From contig CALVHR010000016.1 of assembly GCA_944328495.1 (NCBI GenBank), positions 1 to 43,372 on the forward strand: a stretch of DNA of 43,372 bases, written 5' to 3'. Numbering within the stretch: position 1 is the stretch's first letter; each line of letters begins with the position of its first letter. The translations under genes and the position numbers were made by a program. The stretch is from an uncultured Clostridia bacterium (GTDB lineage Bacteria; Bacillota; Clostridia; Christensenellales; Borkfalkiaceae). Positions 18,295-40,554 of this stretch are shown piece after piece. The notes under the pieces were generated by a model that saw only the letters and a program-made list of their open reading frames with translations, did not search any database and was not told the origin of the DNA.

Positions 18295-18306
18295 ACCTGC
18301 CTCCTT

Positions 18307-19224: not shown

Positions 19225-19243
19225 GTTTCCCCTCGGCAAAAAA

Positions 19244-20644
19244 TCAGAATTCCGTCTTGTAACGGTACATAATGTATGCGTTTGCGTTTTCTTCCGCAGC
19301 CTTTGCCGCCTGCTCCGCCGTGGAATACGTTCCGTCAATCAATTTATTTACTTCCGGAACAATATACTGCATCGTCACCTCTTCAAAATAGGAAAGTCGG
19401 GGCAGCGACGCCGCAATGGAAACGGAATCATAGATTGCTTCCAGATTTTTATATTTTGTCGCACGCTCCTCTTTGGGCACCGCCAATTGCATGTCCCGCT
19501 CCGACTTGCGCGGCGTGGGCATTGCAAATTCCGCCAGCTCTTCAAGATCAGTGCGCGGCGCCGTGAGCCATTTCAGCAGTTCCCACGCACCCTTTTTGTT
19601 TTTGGAATTTTTATGGATCCCGTACGCCGTAATGCTCATTTCTATGCCCGCACGGCTGTCCGTAAGCGCCGATTTCGGCAGCGGCGCCACGTCAAAATTC
19701 AGATTGGAATTGGAAAATGTCATCAGCTGACCGCACGCCACACTATAGAGCATCGCCACTTTTCCGCCCGCAAAATTCCCGAGATTTCCGCCGTCCGAGC
19801 CGTTGTGCGTCCCGATCTTGTCGGGATACTGCGCATTCGTCTGACCCTGTACACCCGTAATTCTGCGCCAATTTGTCAGCGCGCGAATCCCTTCTTCCGT
19901 GTTCAGCGTCACATATCCCTCATCGTCATACAGAGATCCGCCGTCCATCCTCAGCATGGAATACCACTGCGTCCACCACTCCGTCACCGTCTGGTTTCCC
20001 CACTGCTGCGCCGCACCCGAAGAATCATATTTTGTGAGCGCTTTCCCCGCCGCAACAAAATCTTCAAATGTCCAGTCCTCTGTCGGATACGCCTGCCCTG
20101 CCTGATCGAACAGATCTTTGTTATACAAGAGAACGGATACATTGAACGTCGTCGGCAAATAATACAAACCTTCGCCCGAACTCAGCGAATCAAGCATCCC
20201 GTCCAAAAAATCCTCGGACTGCACTTGCTGCGCGTCGCGCTCGATCAGCTTGTTCAAAGGAAGCAAAAACCCTTTCTGGTTTTCAATATGTACGTCGCCG
20301 CCCAAAATCAGATCAGGAGGATTCCCCGTGGATATGGCAGACGTCTGTTCCTGCTTGACCCCGTCGCCTGCGGCACCCCAACGCACCTCTACGTCATACT
20401 GCGGGTACGCATCCTCAAATGCCTCGATCTTCGGCGCATAATAGTCCTGCATATCATTGCTGAAATACACAAGGATCGTGTTGCTGGAATCATTCTTTCC
20501 TTCCCAATCGATCTTATCCCAGTCAATGACATCTTCATACGTATTGGTTTGTCCTTGCGCACCCCCGCCGCATGCCGAAAGCAACATCGACGTACTCGCC
20601 AAACAACAAATCGAAAGCACGATCGCAACCAATTTTTTTAACAT
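19244..20644 (-). CDS. Extracellular solute-binding lipoprotein of sugar ABC transporter, family 1
   Basis: A 466-residue lipoprotein (lipobox LSAC, Cys25) with the start at 20644 after AAGGAGGAAAAAATC; an in-frame Met ten codons earlier is not needed. The mature part has the family-1 binding-protein signature: a YFSNDMQDYYAPKIEAFE opening, NPPDLILGGDVH, YYLPTTFNVSVLLYNKDLF and the WTFEDFVAAGKAL segment. It captures an oligosaccharide outside the membrane and delivers it to the two permeases downstream. It is the second gene of the operon. Confidence 0.95.
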   Translation of the reverse strand: MLKKLVAIVLSICCLASTSMLLSACGGGAQGQTNTYEDVIDWDKIDWEGKNDSSNTILVYFSNDMQDYYAPKIEAFEDAYPQYDVEVRWGAAGDGVKQEQTSAISTGNPPDLILGGDVHIENQKGFLLPLNKLIERDAQQVQSEDFLDGMLDSLSSGEGLYYLPTTFNVSVLLYNKDLFDQAGQAYPTEDWTFEDFVAAGKALTKYDSSGAAQQWGNQTVTEWWTQWYSMLRMDGGSLYDDEGYVTLNTEEGIRALTNWRRITGVQGQTNAQYPDKIGTHNGSDGGNLGNFAGGKVAMLYSVACGQLMTFSNSNLNFDVAPLPKSALTDSRAGIEMSITAYGIHKNSKNKKGAWELLKWLTAPRTDLEELAEFAMPTPRKSERDMQLAVPKEERATKYKNLEAIYDSVSIAASLPRLSYFEEVTMQYIVPEVNKLIDGTYSTAEQAAKAAEENANAYIMYRYKTEF

Positions 20645-20674
20645 GATTTTTTCCTCCTTCCGCTTCCTGCGCAA

Positions 20675-24925: not shown

Positions 24926-25708
24926 ATGCCTATTATCAATTTTATTGAAAAATACTCTACGATCCGCAATCTTGGAGTACATAGTCACAGCTACTGGGAA
25001 ATCATTTATGTCTCTTCCGGAAGCGGCATGTTTGTGTTTTCCGATGACAAAACTATAAAATACAATCAGGGAGACGTCATTTGCATCCCGCCATTGTTGT
25101 TACACCAAAATTTCCCCGATAAAGGATTTTCCAATATACATTTAACCCTAATAAACTGGTCGCCCAATTTCCATGGCCCCGCACTCATTTCAAATTTGGA
25201 AAATGCCGACTTTCACTATGTAAATGATTTGCATTATATTCTCGATCTTACTTATCGGCAATTTCACTATATTCACCAAAACAAAGAGATTATCAACAAT
25301 CTGACCAATCTATTATTGTCCTATATTGATTCATTGATCCAATCTCCAGATGTATCGATTTCATCTAAAATCATTGAATCGAAAATCGTATCAAATTTTG
25401 AAAACCCCTATTTCGATTTGAATTCCGTCTACGAAGAATTTCCTTATTCCAAGCGGCACCTGCAAAGATTGTTTTTAAAAGATTACGGAGTTAGCCCGCT
25501 GCAATATCTAATCCAGCAAAAACTCAATGCAGCGATCAAATATCTGAACCAATCGATAAAAAACGATTATTCGATTTGTGAGATCGCAGATCGTTGCGGA
25601 TTCGGCGATCAATATTATTTCTCTCGAATTTTTAAAAAACAATTTGGCGTAAGCCCGAAAGAATTTCGTAAAAGCGGAGCTTCTTCGGCGGAAATAAAAG
25701 ATGAGTGA
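24926..25708 (+). CDS. AraC-family transcriptional regulator (glycoside operon)
   Basis: A 260-residue regulator with an N-terminal cupin-like domain (VHSHSYWEIIYVSSGSG, GDVICIPPLLLHQNF) and a C-terminal double helix-turn-helix region (NSVYEEFPYSKRHLQRLF, and ICEIADRCGFGDQYYFSRIF ending in GVSPKEF). The ATG at 24926 follows AAGGA by nine bases. The gene runs head-on into the GH1 gene, with 23 bases between the stop codons, at the distal end of the second minus-strand operon. It is the most likely local regulator of that operon, though the operon promoter lies 15 kb away at 40.5 kb. Confidence 0.93.
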   Translation: MPIINFIEKYSTIRNLGVHSHSYWEIIYVSSGSGMFVFSDDKTIKYNQGDVICIPPLLLHQNFPDKGFSNIHLTLINWSPNFHGPALISNLENADFHYVNDLHYILDLTYRQFHYIHQNKEIINNLTNLLLSYIDSLIQSPDVSISSKIIESKIVSNFENPYFDLNSVYEEFPYSKRHLQRLFLKDYGVSPLQYLIQQKLNAAIKYLNQSIKNDYSICEIADRCGFGDQYYFSRIFKKQFGVSPKEFRKSGASSAEIKDE

Positions 25709-25724: not shown

Positions 25725-25741
25725 TCGCTTTTTAAAAGCGA
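25725..25741. repeat. Small palindrome between convergent genes, weak terminator candidate
   Basis: TCGCTTTT and AAAAGCGA form 8-base arms around one T, overlapping the last codons of the GH1 gene in the 23-base convergent gap. The stem is AT-rich and has no clear U tail outside it, so its role in ending either transcript is uncertain. Confidence 0.3.
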
Positions 25742-27078
25742 TGAAGCTCTTCTCCGTTGCTTTCGATAACTTTTTTATACCAATACGCGCTGTCTTTCGG
25801 GATTCGTTTCTGCGTCTCATAATCTACATAAACCAAACCAAAACGCGGTCTATATCCCAATTCCCATTCCATATTGTCAAAAAACGACCAACAAAAATAT
25901 CCGTCCACTTCAGCACCTTCTGCAGCCGCCCTTTCTAACTCCAATAAATATCTTTGCATGAAATCTTTTCTTTGAGGATCATGCACTTTACCGTCTAAAG
26001 AAACCCAGTCGTGACAGCAGATCCCGTTTTCTGTTATCAAGACAGGTTTTTGATATCGCGCATATAACCATTTTGCCAAATATTTGATACCCGACGGAGA
26101 AATATTCCAATGCTCCGCATTGTATTTTGCTCCTTTTTTTTCACGCACCATATTGCCTTTTGCATCAACCGGATAAGCATTATAAAAATTTTGCCCGCAA
26201 AAATCCAATGGTGCATGGATCTCCTTTAAATCGTCTTCCCATGTTACGGGAAGATATTTTTTTAATGCGGACAACATAGGCTCAGGATATATACCCAGAT
26301 AAATAGGATCGGCATACCACGACAAAGATGAATACCAATTAGGCAAACGATAGGAAAAAGTAGCTTCCTCCGCCGCGCAAATATTCTCCGAACTCTCTTC
26401 TATCGGATAAAATACACATCCCTGGTTTGCGAATCCAATTTTTATATCTTTATTTCCCGCTGCACGCATGGCGTGCACAGCTCTTCCGTGACCGAGCAAA
26501 ATATTGTGCGCGATCGGCACCGTTTCCTGATCAGACAACGAAAGTCCCGGTGCTTTTCCACTGCCCCGATGTGCACCTAAGATAAGTTGGGGCTCATTTA
26601 CTGTCATAAAGTGTTTTACTCTGTCCGAATAATGTCTCGCAACGACCTGGGCATATTCGGCAAACCAATCTGCAAACTCCCGATTCAAATATCCGCCTTT
26701 TTGAAAAAGCGTATACGGCAAATCCCAATGAAATAGAGTCACATATGGTTGCACATCGTTTTTCAGCATTTGGTCAATGACACGGTCATAAAAATCAAGA
26801 CCTTTTACATTGACTTTGCCATATCCGTCCGGTAAAATGCGATTCCAAGAAAAACTCATCCGGAACGCATTTATCCCCAGTTGTTTTATGAGTGCAACGT
26901 CTTGTTCATACCTGTGGTAAAAATCGCAAGCCGTTTCACCTGTATCGCCATTAAATATTTTACCTGCTTTTTCACAATGCACGTCCCAGATAGACTGTGT
27001 CCTGCCGTCTTCACGACACGCACCCTCTATTTGATAAGCAGCAGTGGCGACGCCCCAAACAAAATTTTTTTTAAACAT
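25732..27078 (-). CDS. Glycoside hydrolase family 1 beta-glucosidase, cytoplasmic
   Basis: A 448-residue GH1 enzyme of normal length. The N-terminal FVWGVATAAYQIEG signature, the acid/base Glu162 in TVNEP and the nucleophile Glu350 in ITENG are all present, as is the CWSFFDNMEW motif near the end. No signal peptide is seen. GGAGAA precedes the ATG, which overlaps the end of the upstream broken lyase gene by eight bases. The family hydrolyses beta-glucosides, 6-phospho-beta-glucosides and related glycosides. No PTS gene is nearby, so an unphosphorylated substrate such as a plant aryl glucoside is plausible but unproven. It is the last gene of the operon. Confidence 0.96.
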   Translation of the reverse strand: MFKKNFVWGVATAAYQIEGACREDGRTQSIWDVHCEKAGKIFNGDTGETACDFYHRYEQDVALIKQLGINAFRMSFSWNRILPDGYGKVNVKGLDFYDRVIDQMLKNDVQPYVTLFHWDLPYTLFQKGGYLNREFADWFAEYAQVVARHYSDRVKHFMTVNEPQLILGAHRGSGKAPGLSLSDQETVPIAHNILLGHGRAVHAMRAAGNKDIKIGFANQGCVFYPIEESSENICAAEEATFSYRLPNWYSSLSWYADPIYLGIYPEPMLSALKKYLPVTWEDDLKEIHAPLDFCGQNFYNAYPVDAKGNMVREKKGAKYNAEHWNISPSGIKYLAKWLYARYQKPVLITENGICCHDWVSLDGKVHDPQRKDFMQRYLLELERAAAEGAEVDGYFCWSFFDNMEWELGYRPRFGLVYVDYETQKRIPKDSAYWYKKVIESNGEELHRF

Positions 27079-27391
27079 CCTGATTCTCCTTTTCAGGATA
27101 ACGCAAAATTGGCTTTAATTTATTGTTTATGTAATCAAAACCGCTGTACCCATGCTCATGAGATCTTGTATCACGTACAAACCCCTTCTCGGGCCGATTA
27201 TCCCAAGCAGCCCTTTCGTCCCATGCAGAACGGGAAAGCGAAGGCATACTTTCGCCGTTGCCGTTCACGCTTGTTACATAATACATCCCTTGCGGCACTG
27301 AAATTTTTCTGTCACCTCCTTCGTAGAACAAACGCGTTTCGCCGTCTTCTACTTTATAAAGCTTATACACTCCGCAACCGAGCACCTCGCC
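27071..27391 (-). pseudogene. C-terminal tail of broken lyase-like gene, after in-frame TGA
   Basis: This stretch continues in the same frame as the segment upstream and is separated from it only by the TGA at 27392-27394. It completes a fibronectin-III-like domain (GVYKLYKVEDG, MYYVTSVNGNGES) and adds a tail that ends inside the start of the GH1 gene. No ribosome site precedes any internal start codon, so it is unlikely to be made as a separate protein. I read it as the last 106 residues of one original gene. Confidence 0.7.
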
Positions 27392-28260
27392 TCATGAAGC
27401 GCAATAATCACCCTGTGCCGTTTTTTCCACACGAAATCCTTCAGGACTATGCGGCAATGCATCGGTAACGTAAACGGGATAAGCATGCGAAAACTCGCCG
27501 AATTTTTTACCGTTTATACCGCGCACACGCACATAAAACTTACCTTTTTTCAAATCATTGACGGCAAATGAATTTTCGCCTTCTTTAGCTTGAACAGTCC
27601 CGACCGTCCTATAGGTATATTCATCATCCGCGCTCAAAGAAATTTCGTAAGTTTGCGCGCCGAGTAAATGCTCCCATTTCACATCGAAACCGTCCTTTCG
27701 AGCGACTGTAAAACGAACAGCCGCTTTTTCTATATCGGGCGTTTCGCCAATGTTATATGAATGCTTACCCCGCGGCATAATAAAGCAATATGCTCCTTTT
27801 TTGTATGAAAAATCAACCGCTTTGTGATCGACAAACACTTTTGCCTTATCCAACCGAGAAACACGAACAAACACCTCGCCTTCGGCACCGAATACAGCAT
27901 TGCCCCTGACTTCATTCTCGCTCAGAACCGCACTCATTCCGTAGCGTATCTCTCTGTCAAAGGGGATCGTCAGAGAAAAATCATCCAGACGTATATATGA
28001 ACCGTTGAAAATTGCCAAACGCTTTTGCAAATGCGTATCAGTCAAATATCCGACATATCCGTCAAAAGAAAATTCTTTTTCATCTACATAAATACGCGCC
28101 TGATCGTTAAACACCTCTTCTCTTGTCTGAGGAAAAATAAGTTCTGCGCCGTAATCTTTTTTATCGATCGAATAAATCAAACGTTCATCGTGATAATTCC
28201 TTAGGTGCGTGACCACTGTAAGAAAATCACCCTGACCATTAAAATTCATGATCTTACGCG
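27392..28260 (-). pseudogene. Middle part of broken lyase-like gene, after frameshift
   Basis: This frame takes over from the preceding segment near 28255 with a word (MNFNGQGDFLTVV) that continues its beta-sandwich. It includes a first fibronectin-III-like repeat in which Trp (TGG at 27674-27676) starts WEHLLGAQTYEI. It ends at TGA 27392-27394, in what aligns as the same Trp position of the second repeat. A longer open frame back to 28405 exists, but its extra part is Arg-rich and lies over the better-looking upstream frame, so it is a shadow. There is no start signal of its own. Confidence 0.7.
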
Positions 28261-30090
28261 GAGGATACGAGGATACTTTGAATTGTAACCCGCTCCGCTG
28301 TCGACGGGAACCCCCTCTCCTGTCACGAAAGCCTCGACTCCCGGCCGAAGATTTTTTATAACTGGAAATTCCCCGCCGCTGCTTTGCGACCAGGTAAAAC
28401 GGCAATGTTGTTTTGCATCTCCGACTGCATCATATATCGCAATGTAACGGTTTTCCACCATCATAACGCTTCTGTATTTATAATACGGATAAGAGTAGGC
28501 TCCCGCATTTACTCTCGCATATTTTACAAATCCGAAATCCATCAGAGGCTCTGAAAGATCATTACGACCGACAGATCTATATTCATGCCCTATCAAGACG
28601 CCGAAATTCGTACACGATTGTACATCCCCCCGATTTTCGTCACCCACATCTTCGGGGCCATGATCGGTATATTTATAGCGATCGGCATAATAATAGATCT
28701 CCCCGCATCCGCCCTGTGCGGCGCGGCCCCATCTGTAATTGGGGCCCTCATCTATCTGCTGCAAAATAAGGCACATTTCTCCATCTTCATTGACATGGTC
28801 GCGCAACATAAACCCCATGCCCGTATATTTGCAGGAAAATAAATCAGGAGAGGTACCAAATGTATTGGTCGTGCGGTGTTTATACATTTCCCCGTAAATT
28901 CCGCTGCTTTCCAATACCCCTTTGAAATCTGCTTCGTTACGGAAATTATGTAACAGATATTCTGCATACAAAGGCTCGTAATTTTTCAGCATATCAGCCA
29001 ATTCGATCATCGCCGTCATAAAACCGTGACCGAATTTTCCGCCATAAGACCCCGTACAAGCATGCGCCCCGTGAGGCGCATACAAGCGTCTGCCGTCAGC
29101 ATCTTCTGCCGTTTGCATATTTATTAAAAAAGAGATAAATCTTTTTATATGCGGATATAACGCCGGCATTTCGCCGCCGTTAAGATCGTATACCATTCGG
29201 CAATCATATACAATGCACTGCAACATACACATCATGTATGCACCAATATTTTCCGTCCAGCGCCCGCCCAAAGCATCCCAATCAGGGACATCCGGCCTGA
29301 TATGATATTTAAAATTACGCGCAAGCGCAATCTCATAATACTTCAACCATTTTTGATGCATAGGATGATTGGCACCGAGCAACGAAGCAAATACCGCTAC
29401 CGTTCCCGCGACATCGGTCAAAAAATTGGGATGCCCTGCCAAAATGGTATCCGTCGGATAATAATTTTCGTCAGAAAGTGTATAACAAACCAAAGCCATG
29501 GCGGCGCGCTCTCTGCTGAATTCTTCGTCAGTAAGTTCACTTGCCGTCAAATCAAATGTCTGCGCCCAAGAAGATCGAAAGGCTCTGCATGAAACCGGCG
29601 CTATTTCCTCTAACGTAGTAAACAGCGTTGCGTCGCGATCGAGAATGTTCATCATGTCCGCAGCCGAAGGTTTACCTACATGACTTTTATAAAAGCCACC
29701 CCATTTTGTATTTCTTTGCACGCAAAAGTATTTCGGATAAGAATTTTTATCGTCTTCCCACTCGAGGACATAATCTTTTACTTTATTCAAAGAAACTATA
29801 CTAAAATACCGCAGATAATGCGATCTCAGGGCGGTCACGGATCTATCTTTACTATTTTTACCCTTCTTCCATGTAAATGTATGCTCACCTCTATATGGAA
29901 GATCCGCCATTACTTTCAGGCGATACCCATCGTTTGTGGTTTCCGCTTCATATGGAACCGGCTTACCGTCCATGCATAAAATATCAGCGGTAAGGTTCGG
30001 GGCTTTGCCCTTCATTTCGTATATGAGCATTGTCTCGGGAAAAACATAAGCCCAATGCCGCAATTGATCTTTCAATACAAAATCTTCCAT
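28246..30090 (-). pseudogene. Lyase-like (alpha/alpha)-barrel protein, N-terminal part of broken gene
   Basis: The first 614 residues of an approximately 1000-residue protein. The ATG at 30090 follows AGAGG; an in-frame GTG at 30096 overlaps that site. After a beta-rich start, a helical part (about 150-400, GRWTENIGAYMMCMLQC, GSYGGKFGHGFMTAMIELAD) and then a beta-sandwich (EGPNYRWGRAAQGGCGEIYYY) suggest a heparinase II/III-like toroid-plus-sandwich fold, as in polysaccharide lyases; I am not certain of the family. No signal peptide is present, so it is cytoplasmic. The frame ends in RILRVRS at 28246, while the natural continuation lies in the -1 frame, consistent with one missing base near 28250-28270. 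Confidence 0.6.
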
Positions 30091-30114
30091 ATGCACCTCT
30101 TTCCGCTCGTCAGA

Positions 30115-30653
30115 TCATATTTTTTCAAATAAAAATTTTAATACATCATGCAGGATCTTTGCTCCATAAACATTGTCATGATGATAGTCAAAAAGAATAA
30201 AAGCATGCGCAGCCCCCCTCAGATTCTTAAATCACAGGTGACCTCATGCTTTTTCCCCAAACAAGCAGCATAATAGCCGCCGGCCGAATCGCCAACGGCG
30301 ATCATCCGCAGATTTTGATACCTTTCATTGCATAATGCGCGAACGTACGTAAGCGCATCGACACAGTCTGCCAAACCGTCTCTGATGTCCGTACAAGAAT
30401 TCTCATCAAGCAATCTATATGATATGCTTATGCCTATAGCACCGTTTTGCGCCGCGTATTGCGCATGAAGTTTTAATCTCTCGCATGAATCGCTCTTCCA
30501 CCCGCCCCCGTGAATAAACAAAATACAACCCTTGGGACTTTCCAATTTGGGATAACAAACGATCATATCCAGTTTTTGGTCGCCCACGATCTTAAAAACC
30601 CTTCTCTCGCACGCGATCTTTTCTACTTCTTCTTTATGAAATGTCTTTACCAT
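30115..30653 (-). pseudogene. Alpha/beta hydrolase (esterase-like) with internal deletion
   Basis: The first 144 codons (to TGA at 30219) encode the front of a carboxylesterase-like hydrolase: the oxyanion HGGGW motif near residue 48 and the nucleophile Ser in GDSAGGYYA near 124. Just downstream, in another frame, lies the matching C-terminus (HAFILFDYHHDNVYG, ending at TGA 30115-30117), which carries the catalytic His. About 100 residues in between, including the catalytic Asp, are missing. The join is at a run of six G (minus strand) near 30211-30216. The product cannot be an intact catalyst. It lies between a Gfo/Idh/MocA gene and the lyase-like gene, both on the same strand. Confidence 0.75.
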
Positions 30654-30657
30654 TTTT

Positions 30658-31677
30658 TCAGATAAGCCTCTTCGCCTTCTTTTGCGACTTTACTGCCAAT
30701 TCCATTGCATGAAATGTTTGCTTGAAAGACATTGCCGTCTCCGTTCTGTGCAAACAATCATATATTAAATTGCTGAAAAACGGTTTTTCCGTTTTATCTT
30801 TTACGCTCTCTTTTGAAATTTTATCTTTAGTCACCAAAATAACATTTTCACATGAATCGCCACAACCCACATCGATATATTTTCTCAATTCTATGTAACC
30901 CGTTTCTCCCAAGATCACAACTTTGCCGTCCCCGAAAACAGGCAATGCTTCCGGAGTGAACCAATCCACTCGTATATATCCCGTTGCACCGTTTTCACCA
31001 ACCAAATGCACATCTCCGAAATCATCAAATCCTTCAAAATCCCTATGCGCAAAATTCCCGATACCGGACGACAAGATCTTTGCTCTGTTGTTACCTGTAA
31101 ACGTTAAAAACTGATCAAATTGATGACTTCCGATATCGATCAGGATCCCCCCGGATTTTTTCCTCTCATAGAACCATTTAGGTCGGCTTTCCCCTAGTCT
31201 ATGCGGCGCCAGGATCGTCACATTCAAAACTTTTCCTATCGTACCTTCTTTTATCAGCTTATCAGCATAAACTGCGGCTTCACTTTCAAAAAACTCTGAA
31301 TAAAAGACAAAAAACTTATTTCCTGTCTTACGCATTGTTTTCTTTATGCCTCTGATCTGTCTTTGTGTGATCGCAGGGGCTTTAGCGCAAAAGAAATCCT
31401 TTCCTGCTTTCATTGCACGAATTCCCAAAGCAGCCCTTTTTGAAGGTATATCCGCGCTGGCAACAAGCTTAACTTCTCTGTCGGAAAAAACATCTTCCTC
31501 ACTCTGCACAGGTATAACTTGGGGAAATACGCGTGTAAACGACTGCACAGCAGATAAATCCTCGTCGTAAACGTATTTCAATTGTGCCCCTGCCGCGATC
31601 AATCCTCTGCACATTTGATAAATATGGCCATGTGCGAGTCCGATAACAGCAACGATTATTTGCTTGCTCTCGTTCAT
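30658..31677 (-). CDS. Gfo/Idh/MocA-family oxidoreductase, atypical
   Basis: A 339-residue NAD(P)-dependent oxidoreductase with an N-terminal Rossmann fold (VAVIGLAHGH) and the C-terminal substrate domain (GGILIDIGSHQFDQF, with the conserved DxGxHxxD). The usual EKP lysine motif reads CAKAPAIT: the lysine is kept, but Glu and Pro are replaced. Family members oxidise or reduce sugar hydroxyls, often at C3. The start is three bases after the stop of the other Gfo-type gene, with AAAGAGAT as ribosome site. Two divergent family members side by side suggest two steps, such as oxidation to a keto sugar and reduction back. Confidence 0.9.
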   Translation of the reverse strand: MNESKQIIVAVIGLAHGHIYQMCRGLIAAGAQLKYVYDEDLSAVQSFTRVFPQVIPVQSEEDVFSDREVKLVASADIPSKRAALGIRAMKAGKDFFCAKAPAITQRQIRGIKKTMRKTGNKFFVFYSEFFESEAAVYADKLIKEGTIGKVLNVTILAPHRLGESRPKWFYERKKSGGILIDIGSHQFDQFLTFTGNNRAKILSSGIGNFAHRDFEGFDDFGDVHLVGENGATGYIRVDWFTPEALPVFGDGKVVILGETGYIELRKYIDVGCGDSCENVILVTKDKISKESVKDKTEKPFFSNLIYDCLHRTETAMSFKQTFHAMELAVKSQKKAKRLI

Positions 31678-31680
31678 AGA

Positions 31681-32856
31681 TTATCTCTTTAACTCCGCTA
31701 TACTCTTAAACTCGGACAATTCCTCTAAAAGCTTATCTTCTGCATAGCATTTTTCGAGCATTCTGTCTAAGCCTTTGACTGTTAAGACATCATCTATAAT
31801 TTCTGTCGCATCCCGCTTGACATCTATAATTTTGTTATGTTCATGCAATGCAGCGACAAATCGCACCTGTTGTTTAGCGGCAAACACACCGCAAATTGCA
31901 CTTTTTTTCTCTTTTATCGCTTGCAAACAAATGTAAAATTTATGCGAAGCACCCTCGGCAAAAGGATCCCCATATATAATCTTTCTCCCATCGGCAAAGT
32001 GAGCCTCGATACAACCTGAATCATTCGGATAGATCACTTTACATTTTTCAAAGGCATATTCAAACGTCGGATCTACCGTCGAGCGTGTGCTGTGCGAAAC
32101 GACAAACATACCCGTTCCGCCGCAAACAAGACCAAAACGCACTGTTGCCGTATCGAAAGTCTCTATATTGTTGGCACGCAGCAGTGTCGCCTTTATCTCT
32201 GTCGCCGCCGCCGACGTATCGATCTGCTCTCCGAGAATGTAAAGAATATTATGGATATAATGCGCCGTGGCGTTATTGACAATACTGTCTCTGATCATCG
32301 TCCCGTCCGAAGAATATATTTTACCCGCCCATCCGGTAGAACGAGTAAAATATGCGCGCGTTCTCGGCCAGCAAACCATACATTTCAAATGCAACGCTTT
32401 TCCGAATACACCCTGCATAACATCCGCTTTTAGTTTTTGTATCGCGTTGCTGTAACTCCATTGATACCCTATAGCGATCAGCCTGTCCGACTCCTTCGCA
32501 CATTTTTCGAGAGCGGACAAATCCCCGATATCACCCGTCATCGGCTTTTCGCATAAAACATGTGCGCCATGCCTGACAGAAGTAAGTATTTGTCTCGTAT
32601 GGTATTGTATAGGCGTTGCAATAACAACAAAATCAGGTTTTTTGCCTAATTTTTCGTTTTCCGCAAACATTTTTTCTATATCGGAATAAATCGGGATCCC
32701 GATGCTTCTCAACTCCTGAAAACACGCCGACTTTTCCGGAAAGAGATCTACAGCGGCAACAATTTCAAAACCTTCCATAGGTTTTTGAAAAATTTCATTC
32801 AATATAACGCCCCCGTAACCGCCGATACCAACAAACGCCACTCTTATTTTATTCAT
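31681..32856 (-). CDS. Gfo/Idh/MocA-family oxidoreductase
   Basis: A 391-residue member of the family. I place the start at the ATG at 32856, directly before the Rossmann motif (VAFVGIGGYGG) and after AAGAGGAAAAC; an upstream in-frame codon at 32940 would overlap the FrdA-like gene. The classical CEKPM lysine motif is present, followed by a substrate-domain helix with DSIVNNATAHYIHN supplying the conserved histidine. It should use NAD(P) to act on a sugar or cyclitol ring. It lies between the FrdA-like flavoprotein and the second Gfo-type gene. Confidence 0.92.
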   Translation of the reverse strand: MNKIRVAFVGIGGYGGVILNEIFQKPMEGFEIVAAVDLFPEKSACFQELRSIGIPIYSDIEKMFAENEKLGKKPDFVVIATPIQYHTRQILTSVRHGAHVLCEKPMTGDIGDLSALEKCAKESDRLIAIGYQWSYSNAIQKLKADVMQGVFGKALHLKCMVCWPRTRAYFTRSTGWAGKIYSSDGTMIRDSIVNNATAHYIHNILYILGEQIDTSAAATEIKATLLRANNIETFDTATVRFGLVCGGTGMFVVSHSTRSTVDPTFEYAFEKCKVIYPNDSGCIEAHFADGRKIIYGDPFAEGASHKFYICLQAIKEKKSAICGVFAAKQQVRFVAALHEHNKIIDVKRDATEIIDDVLTVKGLDRMLEKCYAEDKLLEELSEFKSIAELKR

Positions 32857-32903
32857 TTCGTTTTCCTCTTTACGTTTTAGTTTAACACAGAAAACAACCG
32901 CAT

Positions 32904-34778
32904 TCAATAGTTTTTTGTATAATTCCTGAAGCGATTCCAAACTTTTTCAAACCACAGATCCCGTTCAGGGATCGGATGCACTTTTCTTTCCGTGATCTTC
33001 AACGCATTCTTTTCTTTTGCAACGATGAGCAGTGTTTTGCGCCCTGTTTCGTTTTCCTTCCTCGGATTGCGCTGCATAAAATCGCTTCCGTCCAAAACAA
33101 AAGCAGAACCTCTCGAACCGTATCTTTCTGCGGCTTCGATCATGGACTGTGCGATCATTTCTTGCATAATCAAGATTTCGCGGTTTTTGAATAGAAAAAA
33201 TATATCATAAGGTTTTGACCAGCCGTTATCTTTACAAAAACTTATTTGCCATTCCCTTATTTTATTCAAATGTAATTTCATTTCTTCTAAATTACGAATA
33301 AAGGCAAAATGCTCGCTCATTGCCTTTTGATATTTTCCGCGTATATCTAAAAGATCGGTTTCCGAACGATGCGTCGCGCATTTTAATTCTTCAGCTTCGC
33401 TTATAGCATCTGCAAGAACAGTTTCAAAATTTTCAAAGGATACTTTCTTTCCGAAGTAAGCGATATGCCTTGCAGCGCGCATGCCTCCGACCTGCGTCGA
33501 ATTTAAAGCGGAACCGCCCGGCCGGAAAATGCCAAAAGTACCGGCAGCCTCCCCGCATGCATACAGCCCGGGAATACTTGTCTGCCAATTTTCATCTACG
33601 CGAATGCCTCCATTATTATGCTGCGCGCATACGGCGATCCGAAGAGGTTCTTTTTCAAGGTCGATCCCGTGTTCTCTATATAGAGAAAGTGCGCCTTCAT
33701 TCATTTTTTTCAAGCGCTCAACTGGCAATGAAATAAGTGCATCGCTGTTTTTAAGATAGTTATATGCAACTTCATCCAACGCATCAAACCCATTTTCAAG
33801 TCGGGAAGGCTCTCGCGTAAAATCCATATACACGTCCCTTCCTAACAAAACGTTTTCCCTGTAAACGAGCAGATCTATATAAGATGACCCGCAAATCTTT
33901 CTCACGTCAAAAGGCCATTCATAACCTTTGAGAAATATATTTTTCAACATTTCTCCGTGATTTTTAAAATTCTCAATCAAAAATTCTCTTTCCGTACCGT
34001 CACGATCCACCGATATATATCGCGGCAAAACCTGCTGATATGTTCCCGATACATTCCAGCGAAAATCAACAGATGCCAAGCCGTATTGCCATTCGGATAA
34101 ATTAACAAATTCCGCCCCCGCTTCAACGGCAAGAGCAGAAGCCCCCGTTTGGCTCTCTGGATAAACACTGTCAAAATAAACGGACGCGGGTCCGCCCGTA
34201 GCCAAAACAACATTACCTGTCCTGATCGCTATGTATTCACCCGATAAAACATCGATCGCCAATATTCCGATAACACTCCCCGTGTCTTTCAAGATCCGGA
34301 TCACCTGACAATTATCGTAAATCGGAATATGCTTTTCCATTACCGCTTTTTCCAAAACTTCCGTCATTTTTTTAGATGTATATGGGCCAATGGAAGTCGC
34401 TCTTTGATATGGATCATGATCTGTTTTATAACCGACATATTCTCCGTATTCATTTGTAGGGAAACGCACGCCTGAATTGGCAAGCTTCATGAAACTTGCC
34501 ACAGAATTGGCTGCTTCACAGAGCGCTATTTCTCCGTCGACAGCACCGCCAGCAAACAGCGTTTCGGCCATGAGCCTTACGCTGTCCCCGTCGTCACCAG
34601 CAAGCGACATCTTATAATAGGTCTGCTTATCGCTTCCGGTATTACGAGATGTGCCCATCATACGGCCTTCGGTAACGATCGCAACGTCCGTGACACCATA
34701 TTCATATAATCTGTCGGCACAATTATAGCCCGCGCAACCGCTTCCGATCACGATTGCCTTATGTTCATAAACTTTCAT
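32904..34778 (-). CDS. FrdA/SdhA-like FAD-dependent oxidoreductase
   Basis: A 624-residue soluble flavoprotein. GSGCAG (12-17) binds FAD. The capping domain and the second FAD region (NNGGIRVDENWQTSIPGLYACGEAAG, then RPGGSALNSTQVGG) follow the fumarate reductase, L-aspartate oxidase and AprA pattern, and a helical C-terminal domain ends the protein. No twin-arginine signal, FMN-binding domain or multihaem motif is present, and no iron-sulphur or membrane subunit is nearby. This differs from a respiratory complex, so it probably reduces or oxidises a specific organic substrate, for example an enoate side chain of an aromatic aglycone. That substrate is conjecture. GGGGAAAAT precedes the ATG. 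Confidence 0.9.
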   Translation of the reverse strand: MKVYEHKAIVIGSGCAGYNCADRLYEYGVTDVAIVTEGRMMGTSRNTGSDKQTYYKMSLAGDDGDSVRLMAETLFAGGAVDGEIALCEAANSVASFMKLANSGVRFPTNEYGEYVGYKTDHDPYQRATSIGPYTSKKMTEVLEKAVMEKHIPIYDNCQVIRILKDTGSVIGILAIDVLSGEYIAIRTGNVVLATGGPASVYFDSVYPESQTGASALAVEAGAEFVNLSEWQYGLASVDFRWNVSGTYQQVLPRYISVDRDGTEREFLIENFKNHGEMLKNIFLKGYEWPFDVRKICGSSYIDLLVYRENVLLGRDVYMDFTREPSRLENGFDALDEVAYNYLKNSDALISLPVERLKKMNEGALSLYREHGIDLEKEPLRIAVCAQHNNGGIRVDENWQTSIPGLYACGEAAGTFGIFRPGGSALNSTQVGGMRAARHIAYFGKKVSFENFETVLADAISEAEELKCATHRSETDLLDIRGKYQKAMSEHFAFIRNLEEMKLHLNKIREWQISFCKDNGWSKPYDIFFLFKNREILIMQEMIAQSMIEAAERYGSRGSAFVLDGSDFMQRNPRKENETGRKTLLIVAKEKNALKITERKVHPIPERDLWFEKVWNRFRNYTKNY

Positions 34779-34790
34779 ATTTTCCCCGAT

Positions 34791-35414
34791 TTAAATTTTA
34801 CGAAATGTGTCCAACCATTTTTCCGCAATAAGTTCTGCGCCGAAAAGTGTCGGATGTACACCGTCAGACAATACAGCCTCATTACCGTAAACTTTTGCCA
34901 AACGATCAAGATCCGCCTGCAACGGAACAAACTTTGCCTGAAACTCTTCCGATAAAGAACGTACGATCTTTGCATAAGCAGTAATTTCGCAAAACCCTTC
35001 ATAAAACGCATCGGTTTCCGTTCCGCGCATCGCAAAAGGTTCCATTAGAATAAGTTTTACGTTCGGAAAACGTTCCAACGTTTCCATTATGATCGCCCGA
35101 TATACTTTTTCATATCTTTTCAATTCCACGCCGCAACCGAGCTTCACATCAAAGGCAAGATCGTTTACCCCCACTAAAATTGAGAGCACGTCGGGATTTT
35201 CATTCCAAACATCTTTTTTCAATCGTGCATACAGATCAACCGTCTTATTTCCGTTTATGCCACGATTGAGTATTTGATATTTAGCATGATCTTCACACAA
35301 TAATCTGCCCGCTACCGATCTTACAAAACCTACACCATAAGAAGAAAGCGCATAATCCGCCTGATAACTCCTGTGCGCATCGGTAATGCTGTCACCCAAA
35401 AATATGATCTTCAT
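34791..35414 (-). CDS. SGNH/GDSL-family esterase
   Basis: A 207-residue GDSL hydrolase without signal peptide. All four blocks are visible: GDSITD with Ser9, the Gly in RGINGN, GVND with Asn, and the Asp-His pair in SDGVHPT. Such enzymes remove acetyl or other acyl groups from sugars. It starts two bases after the SDR stop and ends 12 bases before the FrdA-like gene, so it is in the same transcript. A deacylating role on an acylated glycoside fits the context but is inferred. Confidence 0.93.
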   Translation of the reverse strand: MKIIFLGDSITDAHRSYQADYALSSYGVGFVRSVAGRLLCEDHAKYQILNRGINGNKTVDLYARLKKDVWNENPDVLSILVGVNDLAFDVKLGCGVELKRYEKVYRAIIMETLERFPNVKLILMEPFAMRGTETDAFYEGFCEITAYAKIVRSLSEEFQAKFVPLQADLDRLAKVYGNEAVLSDGVHPTLFGAELIAEKWLDTFRKI

Positions 35415-35415
35415 T

Positions 35416-36150
35416 TTACAACCTTTTAATATGGAATCCTCCGTCAGCGTTCAAAACCGTACCTGTACTAAAATCGAGATACCCTTTCGCGACAGCCAAA
35501 ACGCACTTGGCAACATCCTCAGGAGTTCCCCAACGTTTCATAGGCGTAATACCTTGCGCTATCAATCTGTCGTATTTTTCAGTAACCACTTCCGTCATGG
35601 GCGTTCTGATGATGCCGGGACGAACTTCCAAAACAGGAATATCGTATTCCCCCAATTTGTCGGCAAACAAAGTGGTTATCATCGAAACACCCGCCTTTGA
35701 AATACAATATTCTCCCCTCGAAATACTGGATGTGTAACTGGAATTAGAAGCTATGTTAACAAGTCTCGGCTTATAATCTTTTATGCCCTTTCCCATACAA
35801 TCGATCATATAATTTGCAAACAACTGGCACATAAAAAAAGTGCCTTTTGTATTGATCTGTATAAGCCGATCAAAACTTTCCTCGGTTGTTTCAAGAATAT
35901 CCCTGCGCACTTTGCAAGCTACCCCTGCATTATTGACCAAAAGATCAATACGTCCGAACGTTTTATCCACATATTCCAACAGAGACTGCCTATCTTTCGC
36001 CGAAGATATATCACATTTACAATAATATCGAACCTCGGGCATTTTTTCATGGATATCCGAATACACGACTTCGTATCCGTTTTGCGCCAACATATCCGCT
36101 ATACCTCTTCCGATCCCCTGGTAAGAACCTGTCACAACCGCCGTTTTCAT
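35416..36150 (-). CDS. Short-chain dehydrogenase/reductase (SDR)
   Basis: A 244-residue classical SDR. TGSYQGIG is the NAD(P) motif, NNAG the structural motif, and the catalytic residues appear as Ser in ASNSS followed by Tyr and Lys in YCISK. C-terminal NADGGF is typical of the FabG-like group. The ATG overlaps the upstream stop as ATGA and has GAGGGAG upstream, so it is translationally coupled to the flavin oxidoreductase. It interconverts a hydroxyl and a ketone; the substrate is not readable from the sequence. Confidence 0.95.
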   Translation of the reverse strand: MKTAVVTGSYQGIGRGIADMLAQNGYEVVYSDIHEKMPEVRYYCKCDISSAKDRQSLLEYVDKTFGRIDLLVNNAGVACKVRRDILETTEESFDRLIQINTKGTFFMCQLFANYMIDCMGKGIKDYKPRLVNIASNSSYTSSISRGEYCISKAGVSMITTLFADKLGEYDIPVLEVRPGIIRTPMTEVVTEKYDRLIAQGITPMKRWGTPEDVAKCVLAVAKGYLDFSTGTVLNADGGFHIKRL

Positions 36151-37346
36151 ACTTTGACTCCCTCATATAATTTTTTATAGTATTCGTTGAAAGTTGCACA
36201 ACCCGAAACACTGTGTGCCCGCATCAAAAAAGTACACTTTGAACAGGCGACACAACACTTTTTCGCATTGAATTTCCCGCTTAGATAATCCCTGTAAAAT
36301 TCAGGATAAGCCAAACTTCCGCGGCCGAATCCAACAAAATCGCATACCCCATCCTGCAACATTTTTTCCGCACGCGACATCAGATCATCTCTGTAATAAG
36401 AAATTCCCGATGCAACGATATTCAGTTGCGGAAAAGTCTTTTTCAACTCTTGCTCTACATCGTAAAACCTCTGCAACCCAGTCTCCGCTTTTTCAGGCGC
36501 TTTATAAGCACCGACCCTGAACGGTCTGTTTACATGCGGATTATAATAAGGATTACCCAACGTCACATTGAGGATCTCTACTCCGCACTCGATTAGCTTC
36601 GAAACCAACATCTTTCCTTCCGTAAGATCGAGATTCCCCTCTTCATCCGTACCGAACCCATATGGCTTTTTTACCATATCGCTCAGGCCCAGACGCGATA
36701 CAAGCAAACGATCCTGCGGTATCGCTTGCTTAACCGCACTGACGCAATCAATAAAACATCTGCTCCTGTTTTCAAAGCTGCCCCCGTATTTCCCCTTACG
36801 GTCAAACGCCGAAAGCAGTTCCTGCATCAAATAACCGTGACAACATTTCACATCTACCCCGTCAAACCCCGCTTTTATTGCAAGTTCTGCGGTTTTAGCA
36901 AAAGCGGAAGGCAAACTATCTAAATAATCATCCGTTACAATGCAATCGCCTGCAACAGGTCTTTTTTCTTCATACAAAGGATTATGATACGCGATCATCG
37001 GCACGACGCTCTGCCGTCCGGAATGTGTCAGTTGTAAAATCAAAATCGGCGCAAATCCAAACTCGCGCATGGCGATCTGTCTCATCTTCTGCGTCAATGC
37101 AGAAAATTTTTCAAGATTATCTTCTGTAAGGCGCATCTGCCTTTCATTCGTTCGACCTTCGGCACATACCGCACTCGCTTCAAACCAAATGATCCCTGCG
37201 CCAGATGCTGCATATTTAAAATATTTTTTTTCTGTTAGTTCACTCGGACTGCCGTCTTCCAAACAATCGCAACCTTCCATCGGTTGTATGACTACGCGAT
37301 TCGCTATATTGTATTTTCCGATCTTTATTTCTTCACTTAAAAACAT
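36147..37346 (-). CDS. NADH:flavin oxidoreductase (old yellow enzyme family) with Fe-S motif
   Basis: A 399-residue TIM-barrel flavoenzyme. I start it at the ATG at 37346, six bases after AGAGG; a TTG at 37364 is also in frame. QPMEG, LQLTHSGRQS and CHGYLMQELLS with KYGGSFENR are family signatures for FMN and substrate binding. The C-terminus has CCVACSKC and a later Cys (VSGC), as in members with a 4Fe-4S cluster such as 2,4-dienoyl-CoA reductase and bile-acid or flavonoid enoate reductases. The second FAD/NAD domain of those enzymes is absent, so the electron donor may be a partner protein. It probably reduces a conjugated C=C bond. Confidence 0.93.
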   Translation of the reverse strand: MFLSEEIKIGKYNIANRVVIQPMEGCDCLEDGSPSELTEKKYFKYAASGAGIIWFEASAVCAEGRTNERQMRLTEDNLEKFSALTQKMRQIAMREFGFAPILILQLTHSGRQSVVPMIAYHNPLYEEKRPVAGDCIVTDDYLDSLPSAFAKTAELAIKAGFDGVDVKCCHGYLMQELLSAFDRKGKYGGSFENRSRCFIDCVSAVKQAIPQDRLLVSRLGLSDMVKKPYGFGTDEEGNLDLTEGKMLVSKLIECGVEILNVTLGNPYYNPHVNRPFRVGAYKAPEKAETGLQRFYDVEQELKKTFPQLNIVASGISYYRDDLMSRAEKMLQDGVCDFVGFGRGSLAYPEFYRDYLSGKFNAKKCCVACSKCTFLMRAHSVSGCATFNEYYKKLYEGVKV

Positions 37347-37360
37347 ATTTACCTCTGTAC

Positions 37361-38242
37361 TCAATTAAAATAATATTCTGTTGACCAATCATACACCTCT
37401 TCAGGCACCAGTTTTATCCGCAATTTCGGTTCAAACGAAATAACGCGGTCATTGACAAATACTTGCAACAAACCAAGCGGATAATCGCCGAGCGCCTTGT
37501 ATACAGTTCGCTCGCCACTATAAATCGTCTGTATGTTTACCGAATCTCTCCCCGTCCAAACATAGCAGATACCTTTTTGCGTTTGCTCACATTCCGAAAT
37601 ACCATAAGATACGAATAATTCGACTGCACCTTTTTCACGTACAATAAATCGTTCATCGGTTTGCAAGTTCAATGCAGCCGGAATTTCTATCCGCAATTTC
37701 CCTTCTGCACCTTGAACAGGGAGAAAAGCGTGCGAATACCATAACGTCTCAAACACCTTGTCTCCTCTGTTTTTCAAAGAATGCGATATCCGAAGAGCAT
37801 TGCCGCTTAAAAGAATTTCTTTTTTATAATAATAAGAATTCTCTCCAAGTGCATCCGCCTGTGTAAATACAACAGACATTCCGTTTTTCACAATGCCAAT
37901 CGGCGCCACACGGCTGATCTTGTGCTTATCCCTGTTTGTATATATTTTTTGATCTGCTTTGATCTGCCTGCCCACTCCAATTTTTAAAAAATTTCCCCCG
38001 TTCTGCGCTTCATCATAGCCGACAGGCATTTCAAACTCATCAGGAAATCCCTCTCCCGAAAACGGATCGAAAACAGATTTCGGTGAATATAACAACTCTT
38101 TCCCTCTGACCTTATCAAAAATGCTTCTTATGTAGCCGCAATAACTGTAACGCGTTGAAAAATGCAGATCAGCAATATTGGATGGGTCACAGATCGCTAT
38201 CCTAAATCTGTGATTTTCAAGTATGATTTCTTTCGTATCCAC
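37361..38242 (-). CDS. Galactose-mutarotase-like (aldose 1-epimerase-type) protein
   Basis: A 293-residue beta-rich protein with no signal peptide. The fold pattern (IRSIFDKVRGKELLYS near the start, FLPVQGAEGKLRIEIP in the middle) resembles the galactose mutarotase-like sandwich, but I do not see a full aldose-1-epimerase His/Glu set. The start appears to be GTG at 38242 with GGGTGA upstream. It sits four bases after the GH65 remnant and overlaps the leader of the flavin oxidoreductase. It may set the anomeric form of a sugar released by the neighbouring glycosidases, or be a carbohydrate-binding relative. Confidence 0.75.
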   Translation of the reverse strand: MDTKEIILENHRFRIAICDPSNIADLHFSTRYSYCGYIRSIFDKVRGKELLYSPKSVFDPFSGEGFPDEFEMPVGYDEAQNGGNFLKIGVGRQIKADQKIYTNRDKHKISRVAPIGIVKNGMSVVFTQADALGENSYYYKKEILLSGNALRISHSLKNRGDKVFETLWYSHAFLPVQGAEGKLRIEIPAALNLQTDERFIVREKGAVELFVSYGISECEQTQKGICYVWTGRDSVNIQTIYSGERTVYKALGDYPLGLLQVFVNDRVISFEPKLRIKLVPEEVYDWSTEYYFN

Positions 38243-38246
38243 TGCG

Positions 38247-38988
38247 TCACCCGATCACATAATCTGTATTTGCGGCTAATGCGTATCTCTTTCCCGCATT
38301 GAAAATATATGTATTGCCATCTGACCTGACCGTAAACTTCTCCTTGTCGACAGTAACGGAGTATCTTATTCCTTTAAATGTAATTTTATAGGAAAGTTTT
38401 GACCACTTATCCGGCATTTTAGGATCAATATGCAGTTCATTTCCACGGAAATGAACACCACCAAATCCGTAAACAGTTGCGCACCACGTTCCTCCCGCAC
38501 ATGCAATATGAATCCCTTCGAACAAATTCTTATCCATATGCATGTTTTTCAGATCTAACAGCGCAGTCAAGGAAAGATACGCGTAGGCATATTTATCAAA
38601 GCCGTTTCTCAACCCGACAACACAATGTACCGAAGGACTCAAGGAATATCCGTGTTTGCACCGCTTTTCATAATATTTGAAACTTTCCGCCTGGATCTGC
38701 GGAGAAAAATCTTCCGGAAATAAGTAGTGCAACATTACTACATCCGGCTGTTTCAGCTCCTGTAATCCACTGTCGAAAACCCGCCTTCTGTCCTTTGGCA
38801 TCCCATAAGCATCGCGTTCTATTTCTCCGATATCTTTTAATTGGAAAAAACCTTGAAACTGCTCACAGACATTCGACATCATCGCAGGGAAAGCTATACC
38901 ATTTGCCACTTCAGACATTTTTTTTCGCGACTCTTGATCAAAGGAAGTGCCCTCTTCTATACGGTGATATGCCACTGTCTTTTTCCTT
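38247..38988 (-). pseudogene. GH65 phosphorylase C-terminal part, out of frame with its front
   Basis: This stretch, readable in the frame that ends at 38247, contains the last helices of a GH65 (alpha/alpha)6 barrel (EQFQGFFQL, SPSVHCVVGLRNG, GIHIACAGGTWCATVYGFGGV) and its C-terminal beta-domain (KITFKGIRYSVTV). It continues the GH65 portion encoded immediately upstream, but in a frame displaced by +1 or -2 near 38970-39000. The open frame extends to 39080 without a ribosome site, so no independent protein is expected. The original enzyme would phosphorolyse an alpha-disaccharide such as kojibiose or maltose. Confidence 0.75.
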
Positions 38989-40485
38989 TCATGCTTCCAT
39001 AGAACGGATCGCTTCAAGCATATTCCATTTTGCAAGATAATTTGTATAATAATTATCTGTAACATGAATGTTATATTCATCCGGTCCGGTCACATCTTCA
39101 ATATGATATTTACCGTCTTCCCCGAGCGTCGTTCGTGACATGTAATACTTTGCGGTCTCCACGATCGTCTCAATCGCATAATTTTTGTAAAATTCATAAT
39201 CATCTGTTTGCCTATAATAGTTGTGCATCGCATAGGCAACGGCTCCTGCAATATGTATTTCGCGCTTTGAACTTTCCGCCCAATCAGGTGGAGTTACATC
39301 ACGCCCCGTATACGCGCTCGTCCATGGAAATTTTGCGCCCTCGCATCCCTCGTTTTTTGCAATTTCTTTAGCTTGTGCAAGGCGCTTATATCGATAAAGC
39401 AGCAAACTTTTTGCCTCTTCAGGATCGGTAGCAAGATAAAACGGCACCATAAAAATCTCGGTATCCCAAAATGCGTGCCCAAAGTATCCCTGGCCGTGCA
39501 ACCCTGTCGCGCTGATGGAAATATCTGTATTCCCTTCATATGCCAACTGCATGAGGTTAAATATATTCCATCTGACCCCAAGCTGTATTTCGTCGTCCCC
39601 CTCAATAGAGACATCCGATGTTTCCCAGGCCTTTTGCCATGCGCTTACATGCTCTTCAATGATGCGTTCTTCTGACGTATTCGGCAGAACTGCTACGTCT
39701 ATATCATCATGCGTCGTAAAATATGCGCAACGCTTAAAAAAAGAATATTTTTGACCTTTCAAGGCATTAAACTTAAAAATTTCATCTATACCATTTTCTG
39801 TTTTTTCAATGAGTTTTTTTCCTGTTCCCTCCGTTTCGGGCTTATCTGCCAAATGATTGGAAATCACGTCGCTGCGGATGAAAACCTCCTCTAACGTCAC
39901 GAGTGAAATCCCAAAAGCCGAGGCACGCTCCTCGGGAAGATATTTATCCCAAGCAATAACATTGACGGAAATATCCTTCAATTTTTCTGCAACAAGCGCG
40001 CCAATCGTCCCGACTCCGATCAGTCCGACCGTCGCACCGTAATTTCCCGCATACTTTTCAAAAACTTTTTTCTTTTCGGCGTAAGGCATCTTCTCCGACG
40101 CACGAAAAAAACTTTTATTGGCCAATACAATTTGCGCAAAAACCGTTTCCGCAACAGGGATCGCATTGGAACGCTTGCTGCTGAAGATGCGAACACCACA
40201 CGCAAACAAATTTGCCGCGAAATTCTTAACAGTACCGGCTGCATAAAATACATATTTCAAAGAGGGAAAAAATTTCTTTATTTCTTCTTGTGTAAAATTC
40301 GGCATTCCCCACGTCGAAAAGGCATATTTTACCGAATACAATTCCTCCCTCCAATATGAAACATTATGCCTTCCGATCGTCTCCGGCACACAGCTTCCGA
40401 ACATACGCACTTGTTCTTTCCTTCCCTCGGAAAAAACTCTTTCTACCGCATTTTCTTCTGCTCCTAAAAACGCTATTTCAGCCAT
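38989..40485 (-). pseudogene. Chimera: D-2-hydroxyacid dehydrogenase front fused to GH65 phosphorylase middle
   Basis: A 498-residue open frame starting at ATG 40485 (AAGGAG ten bases upstream; a GTG at 40494 abuts that site). Residues 1 to about 220 are a D-isomer-specific 2-hydroxyacid dehydrogenase, with the NAD motif GLIGVGTIGA and NHLADKPET, cut off before the catalytic Arg, Glu and His blocks. From about 39835 onward it becomes the middle of a GH65 phosphorylase (FFKRCAYFTTHDD, GQGYFGHAFWDTEIFM, and DVTGPDEYN with the catalytic Glu), lacking the GH65 N-terminal domain. It stops at 38989, while the rest of GH65 continues in another frame. Neither half can be a complete enzyme. An in-frame deletion joining two genes, or a false assembly join, would explain it. 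Confidence 0.8.
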
Positions 40486-40524
40486 GCTCTCCACTCCTTG
40501 AAATCCGATCGCTTTTGCAACTAT

Positions 40525-40554
40525 ATTATAAACGCTGTTTTACAGGCAAGTCAA
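40525..40554 (-). promoter_or_regulatory. Strong sigma-70-type promoter of the glycoside operon
   Basis: On the minus strand TTGACT (40549-40554), an 18-base spacer and a perfect TATAAT (40525-40530) lie about 40 bases before the ribosome site of the chimera gene. The spacer holds the small palindrome CTGTAAAACAG, a possible operator half. This is the only clear promoter between 40.5 kb and 25.7 kb, and the genes between are spaced by a few bases or overlap, so it likely drives the whole operon. Confidence 0.8.

Follow-up and report, generated by a model that had tools for sequence, protein, structure and literature searches.

The 43,372-nucleotide contig CALVHR010000016.1 of an uncultured Clostridia bacterium (GCA_944328495.1), called the window below, was analysed. 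On its minus strand, from 40494 to 25732, it carries a run of genes in which a relative of the old yellow enzymes (OYE), a short-chain dehydrogenase/reductase (SDR) and a flavoprotein resembling FrdA stand among sugar-active genes. This leads to the question which compound the run acts on and what the three redox enzymes contribute. An earlier note, made from the DNA letters, had proposed a redox-assisted carbohydrate operon that takes a plant glycoside apart and reduces its flavonoid-, cinnamate- or steroid-type aglycone. The first part of this proposal is supported, as the run is a real yet damaged carbohydrate redox operon. Its heart, we conclude with moderate confidence, is a three-gene redox module (OYE, SDR and FrdA-like flavoprotein) of hexuronate catabolism. 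The conclusion builds on the observed gene content, fold class and synteny, and on the repeated linkage of these genes to 2-keto-3-deoxy-6-phosphogluconate (KDPG) aldolase and a kinase of the 2-keto-3-deoxygluconate (KDG) type.

The OYE corresponds to one half of the FadH/2-naphthoyl-CoA reductase class. It retains the FMN barrel and the four cysteines, Pfam recognises only Oxidored_FMN, and the C-terminal FAD/NAD(P)H domain is missing. Because this half is lacking, the electrons would have to come from another protein. The SDR belongs to the PRK12745 group, which to our knowledge is without tested function. Along its length the flavoprotein shows the fold shared by complex II flavoproteins and aspartate oxidase, and its invariant R419 aligns with Arg390 of FrdA, which together with His355 we take to be the substrate residues of that enzyme. 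Its best score with an NCBIfam model of the FrdA/SdhA/NadB type is 144.9 bits against a cut-off of 718, and none passes among 25 of the 37 NCBIfam models listed for it.

The conservation of the trio was followed through relatives of the flavoprotein (loci are labelled L and genomes G, each with a number). True relatives are present in 7 of 201 genomes of the family and in 4 of 40 of the genus, the window's own genome included, and OYE, SDR and FrdA-like genes are together in all six other family loci. Named genomes were scanned as well and hold at least 567 relatives; the 80 most similar were carried forward. In these and the six family loci (n = 86), the SDR adjoins the flavoprotein in 79, the OYE in 68 and both in 67. 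The remaining 19 comprise 10 that are close to a contig edge and 9 that are not. Synteny of the OYE and FrdA-like genes, named in the earlier note as a check, is thereby confirmed, with the SDR as third member. A phylum-wide draw of 398 genomes found the flavoprotein family in 21 (own included), clearly separated by score from 22 other matches. Those 22 genomes (E 1e-93 to 1e-72) hold a second, more distant flavoprotein group of the phylum.

Neighbouring genes within 8 kb were counted by tblastn at 106 loci, comprising the 80 named ones, the six of the family, 19 from the phylum draw (its partial match G545 being left out) and one more of the genus. As background, 36 stretches, mostly of 20 kb, were picked by hand from 14 flavoprotein-bearing genomes, the 453-base L197 being dropped. 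A KDG-type kinase is near 13 of the 106 loci, and 11 of the 13 also have a KDPG aldolase, with two loci on the other strand; both genes are near 0/36 background stretches. From the copy number in 27 flavoprotein-bearing genomes, not in the named genomes, 0.82 KDPG aldolase genes were expected near the loci (P 1.4e-9). Any uronate or KDG marker was found at 24/106 loci and 0/36 background stretches (p 5.7e-4), a count that is partly selected, since the markers were picked after viewing the neighbours of some of the same loci. A TIM-barrel protein or a hydroxyacid dehydrogenase is near 36 loci, against one background stretch, and heparinase II/III near eight loci.

In L082, L094, L163, L172, L039 and L180, a KDPG aldolase (PF01081) and a KDG-type kinase stand behind the flavoprotein. 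The order is OYE-SDR-FrdA-KdgA-KdgK in L082, L094, L039 and L180, and OYE-Gfo-Gfo-HADH-SDR-FrdA-KdgA-KdgK in L163, where HADH is a hydroxyacid dehydrogenase. L039 and L180 belong to the window's genus, which has three such loci besides the window's own. UxaE, UxaC, UxaA and a family 28 glycoside hydrolase (GH28) occur at loci of Halanaerobium saccharolyticum (Halanaerobium L115 and L120) and also at L169, from another genome, and H. congolense L099 reads LacI-OYE-SDR-FrdA-TctC..TctA-tagaturonate reductase-UxaE-UxaC-UxaA. Because the trio is often beside uronic acid breakdown genes in relatives, the run is more likely to belong to a sugar-acid pathway than to one for drug-like plant compounds. 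On a quick flavoprotein tree (no bootstrap; rows L041 and L110 left out), the 13 KDG-labelled loci require 11 gains or losses, so the KDG link is not one inherited cluster. This label is spread over the tree much as shuffled labels are (11 changes vs 12.5), and the wider uronate label is clustered (16 changes vs 21.7). Two further arrangements were seen at these loci. Downstream of KdgK, at L039:12793-16708, two proteins resemble by eye fucose isomerase and rhamnulokinase. At L062:13894-15567 and L063:4205-5809 a KDPG aldolase and a KDG-type kinase are fused into one protein, preceded by a heparinase II/III protein.

The same neighbours bear on the plant-glycoside operon, in which a glycoside would be freed and its aglycone reduced by the OYE, SDR and FrdA-like enzymes. 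Equol formation uses enzymes of these very classes, all three stand side by side here, and the window also encodes a family 1 glycoside hydrolase (GH1), an esterase and a BD-FAE-type hydrolase. However, conservation of the trio does not extend to the glycosidase and esterase genes, the uronate and KDG markers stand at the loci counted above, and relatives occur in E. coli and in Halanaerobium, a halophile that is not of the gut. Aglycone reduction is accordingly judged improbable, the trio or the flavoprotein having been found near KDG-type kinase, KDPG aldolase, heparinase II/III, GH28, UxaA/C/E and tagaturonate reductase. Uronate use, which the earlier note had named beforehand as telling against its proposal, is indicated at the 24 marker-bearing loci only, and weakens the aglycone reading to that extent. 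The resemblance to an equol-like cluster, which the OYE-SDR-FrdA combination had prompted, likewise lost ground to the sugar-acid neighbours. The conserved core had thus been spotted earlier but probably misread, a sugar acid being the substrate instead of an aglycone.

Whole genomes were also compared, 27 with the flavoprotein and 50 hand-picked ones without it. KDPG aldolase scores over its cut-off in 26/27 and 22/50, respectively (p 3.7e-6). Of the 26 genomes in which flavoprotein and KDPG aldolase occur together, 8 lack all of KduI, UxaC and UxuA, a count for which other KDG sources such as aldonate dehydratases were not searched; in one of the eight, the single-contig G439, the flavoprotein is followed directly by KDPG aldolase and KDG-type kinase. 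A bolder proposal, which we consider less likely than not, is that the trio forms an unrecognised redox route to KDG that replaces KduI/KduD and UxaC/UxuA in many anaerobes. On contig 24 of the window's own genome (2.12 Mb, 91% complete), UxaC, UxuA and KDPG aldolase are neighbours; the genome has four KDPG aldolases in all, each on a contig other than the window, and no KduI match. GH88, tried as a marker, is over its cut-off in 12 of the 77 genomes.

The established chemistry of the OYE, FrdA-like and SDR classes concerns C=C bonds adjacent to a ketone or a carboxylate, and the conversion between ketone and alcohol. In a hexuronate pathway, the module could accept a uronic acid, an unsaturated uronic acid or a keto-uronide supplied by a lyase or by a Gfo/Idh/MocA dehydrogenase. 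The flavoproteins would work on a C=C bond, the FrdA-like protein beside the carboxylate and the OYE beside the ketone, and the SDR would interconvert carbonyl and alcohol. Judged with the neighbouring genes, the most probable product is KDG or a near relative, which would be phosphorylated and split by the aldolase. The window's glycosidases GH1 and GH65, its esterase and its Gfo pair would serve to free and prepare the sugar acid. The substrate, the order and direction of the steps and the electron donor are conjectural.

Several results weigh against the assignment to hexuronate catabolism. A uronate or KDG marker is lacking at 82 of the 106 loci, and 53 have neither such markers nor TIM-barrel or hydroxyacid dehydrogenase genes. 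The kinases have KDG kinases as their best NCBIfam models, yet fall under every curated KDG-kinase cut-off. No KDG kinase or KDPG aldolase was found among the window proteins scanned, and GH88 had no match in the window's genome. In the genome comparison, the control rhamnose isomerase tilts the same way, if less (14/27 vs 14/50, p 0.049), so part of the aldolase signal may reflect general sugar use. Enrichment is absent for KduI (10/27 vs 11/50, p 0.19), UxaC (13/27 vs 19/50, p 0.47) and UxuA (11/27 vs 13/50, p 0.21); KduI being neither depleted nor enriched, the trio was rejected as a KduI replacement. At the position of FrdA H355 the flavoprotein has a glutamine (Q386), with an invariant H387 beside it. 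The 19 loci fetched from the phylum draw have an OYE near in five, an SDR in four and both in just three. The trio is thus the rule among close relatives; farther out, the flavoprotein has other partners and also works without OYE and SDR. Relatives in E. coli (35-37% identity) and at L161 stand beside CoA transferase and enoyl-CoA hydratase genes, and in Rhizobium a Gfo gene, a sugar kinase and an aldolase adjoin the relative. From these E. coli and Rhizobium partners it follows that the flavoprotein family is broader than uronates.

The E. coli cluster at L125:5910-14833, between ytfB and rplI, has the order TetR-SDR-TIM barrel-enoyl-CoA hydratase-CoA transferase-FAD protein-TRAP. Among 5426 complete E. 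coli genomes, 1440 contain at least 80% of the queried stretch, and a literature search for the function of the cluster found no paper. A second FAD-protein cluster of E. coli, near dusA (L126:6233-13018), has CoA transferase, enoyl-CoA hydratase and quinone oxidoreductase. L161:9052-19901 is a single run of flavoprotein, MDR, cupin, KduI/IolB-type, enoyl-CoA hydratase, CoA transferase, MaoC, TIM-barrel and TRAP genes, possibly a CoA-dependent sugar-acid route. Clusters like those of E. coli and L161, with TIM barrel, enoyl-CoA hydratase, CoA transferase and TRAP importer, would fit a pathway for a ring acid (quinate/shikimate-like, or a cyclitol acid) by oxidation, dehydration, C=C reduction and CoA-dependent ring opening. 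But CoA transferase and enoyl-CoA hydratase are each near only 1/106 trio-type loci, KDG-type enzymes suit sugar acids, and literature searches on the quinate/shikimate version turned up no paper, which makes a ring acid very improbable as the substrate.

The window's Gfo/Idh/MocA pair (GfoA and GfoB) opens another route. Here a Gfo enzyme would oxidise C3 of a glycoside, elimination would yield a 2-hydroxy-3-keto-glycal (an enone), and the trio would reduce or rework it. GfoA weakly matches DgpA (1e-7) and the glucuronide-3-dehydrogenase 8tdi (5.9e-5). GfoA-like genes are near 14/106 loci and GfoB-like genes near 8/106, against 1/36 and 0/36 background stretches, and AP_endonuc_2 family TIM-barrel proteins are near 28/106. 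DgpC-type enzymes belong to this class (PMC8563793). Nevertheless, GfoA is far below the cut-offs of the gut glycoside 3-dehydrogenases (46.3 vs 750 bits for BT_2158, 26.4 vs 650 for BT_2159), no 3-keto-disaccharide hydrolase scores over its cut-off, and a Gfo gene is lacking in the vicinity of most trio loci. Synteny of the Gfo pair, the other half of the check named in the earlier note, holds in part, in that the pair recurs beside the trio in few loci (e.g. L078, L163). A 3-keto-glycoside pathway is therefore considered unlikely, and it may overlap with the hexuronate pathway if the glycoside is a uronide. An inositol-to-propionate pathway was rejected. It is described with Iol proteins, CoA transferase, acyl-CoA dehydrogenase and Etf in the available part of PMC8355322, which names no OYE or FrdA-like enzyme, and both Gfo proteins are far under the 355-bit cut-off of the inositol dehydrogenase IolG (GfoA 69.4, GfoB 53.2).

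The window is one complete contig, and the features of the run and its flanks are collected in Table 1. From 39080 to 30219 adjacent genes overlap or are at most 12 nt apart, so a single transcript is plausible for that stretch. Beyond the hydrolase, a 122-nt gap precedes the next gene. The promoter described earlier is present and matches well; sites with at least 11/12 matches number three in 19 kb, against a mean of 0.75 and a highest value of 2 in simulated sequences (n = 60). That the run encodes no transporter is correct within its limits, but an ABC importer, overlooked earlier, lies on the same strand in the next run. The same strand at 382-20674 also codes for GH38, for GH3 and for a protein of 2004 aa. 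This protein, with Big_3 and GH28 domains at window positions 382-6396, is a pectin-type enzyme on the contig.

Table 1. Features of the gene run and adjoining genes, in window coordinates
Feature	Position	Strand	Basis
Promoter-like site TTGACT-18-TATAAT	40525..40554	-	motif scan
Truncated D-2-hydroxyacid dehydrogenase fused in frame to first part of GH65 catalytic domain	38989..40494	-	Pfam, blastp, tblastn
Remainder of GH65, different frame	38247..39080	-	Pfam
293-aa protein (earlier label mutarotase-like)	37361..38242	-	without family match
OYE half with four cluster cysteines, core trio (PF00724)	36147..37364	-	Pfam, NCBIfam, alignment
SDR of PRK12745 group, core trio	35416..36150	-	over PRK12745 cut-off
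SGNH/GDSL hydrolase (PF13472)	34791..35414	-	Pfam
FrdA-like flavoprotein, core trio (PF00890)	32904..34778	-	Pfam, NCBIfam, fold
Gfo/Idh/MocA oxidoreductase A (GfoA)	31681..32940	-	Pfam, NCBIfam, sequence search
Gfo/Idh/MocA oxidoreductase B (GfoB), full-length relatives 2p2s, 3u3x	30658..31677	-	Pfam, PDB match
Alpha/beta hydrolase (BD-FAE), 144 aa, short	30219..30653	-	Pfam
616-aa protein (earlier label lyase), first piece of gene in three frames	28246..30096	-	open reading frame list
Second piece of three-frame gene, weak fn3	27392..28405	-	sub-threshold Pfam
Third piece of three-frame gene	27071..27385	-	open reading frame list, Pfam scan
GH1 beta-glucosidase family	25732..27078	-	Pfam; exceeds TIGR03356 cut-off
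AraC-type regulator adjoining run	24926..25708	+	Pfam
ABC importer (binding protein and two permeases), next same-strand run	17437..20674	-	scan of window proteins

Gene labels were checked against Pfam, NCBIfam and PDB sequences, with blastp and tblastn for the 501-aa open reading frame at the start of the run. The earlier labels of the GH65 pieces, OYE, SDR, SGNH, FrdA-like, two Gfo, alpha/beta hydrolase and GH1 genes were upheld by Pfam/NCBIfam. Two others fell away: the supposed mutarotase gave zero matches in Pfam, NCBIfam and PDB sequences, and the supposed lyase none in Pfam or NCBIfam and a sole PDB match at E 0.19. The 501-aa frame begins with a match to residues 5-222 of 334 of a D-2-hydroxyacid dehydrogenase, a fragment overlooked earlier, and continues in frame into GH65; the chimera reflects either an internal deletion or an assembly error. 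Relatives of the SGNH, GH1, 293-aa, 616-aa and hydrolase genes are near 0/106 loci and a GH65 relative near 1/106 (tblastn, E 1e-6), and for this reason these genes look like local additions.

Frame-broken, chimeric and short genes occur in this accessory part, where GH65 and the large 616-aa-led gene are broken and the hydrolase is short. They could signify that the operon is decaying in this genome and serves no function now, irrespective of the trio's role elsewhere. Yet six genes, those for OYE, SDR, SGNH and the FrdA-like protein and the two for Gfo enzymes, have open frames of full length, and the breaks could be assembly errors, so decay is thought rather unlikely. Among the 40 genus genomes there is no near-identical locus (four carry the flavoprotein, the other three copies being 52-64% identical), and private and shared gene breaks are therefore not separable.

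For anaerobes of the gut and rumen, the uronic acids of pectin, hemicellulose and host glycans are an important source of food. The trio has hundreds of relatives and no assigned reaction, and recurs next to the two enzymes that conclude the KDG pathway, a sign that current maps of uronate degradation may lack one step. A literature search for an OYE-SDR-FrdA uronate module found no description. An OYE and FrdA-like pair in a gut genome need not signal drug or flavonoid reduction.

The trio can finally be set against known systems. FadH (2,4-dienoyl-CoA reductase) and 2-naphthoyl-CoA reductase have the FMN barrel and four-cysteine motif in common with the window OYE, but are 660-671 aa long, whereas the OYE has 405 aa and no FAD/NAD(P)H half. 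The complex II flavoproteins (FrdA, SdhA) and L-aspartate oxidase are about 20% identical to the window flavoprotein, which differs in the glutamine at the H355 position. The ytfB-rplI cluster of E. coli shares an SDR (35% identical) and the flavoprotein (37%) with the trio, but is without OYE and carries CoA and TRAP genes. The KduI/KduD and DEH-reductase routes convert unsaturated uronates to KDG, which is then handled by KdgK and KdgA. Like the proposed pathway, they end in KDG kinase and KDPG aldolase and have an SDR as carbonyl reductase; unlike it, they are not known to involve an OYE or FrdA-like enzyme, and the KduI family is missing from 17 of the 27 flavoprotein-bearing genomes. The equol cluster (DZNR, DHDR and THDR; names and steps as in PMC8898433) resembles the trio at the level of enzyme class, with an OYE-, an SDR- and a FrdA-class enzyme, and differs from the trio in that the neighbours of the latter include sugar-acid genes.

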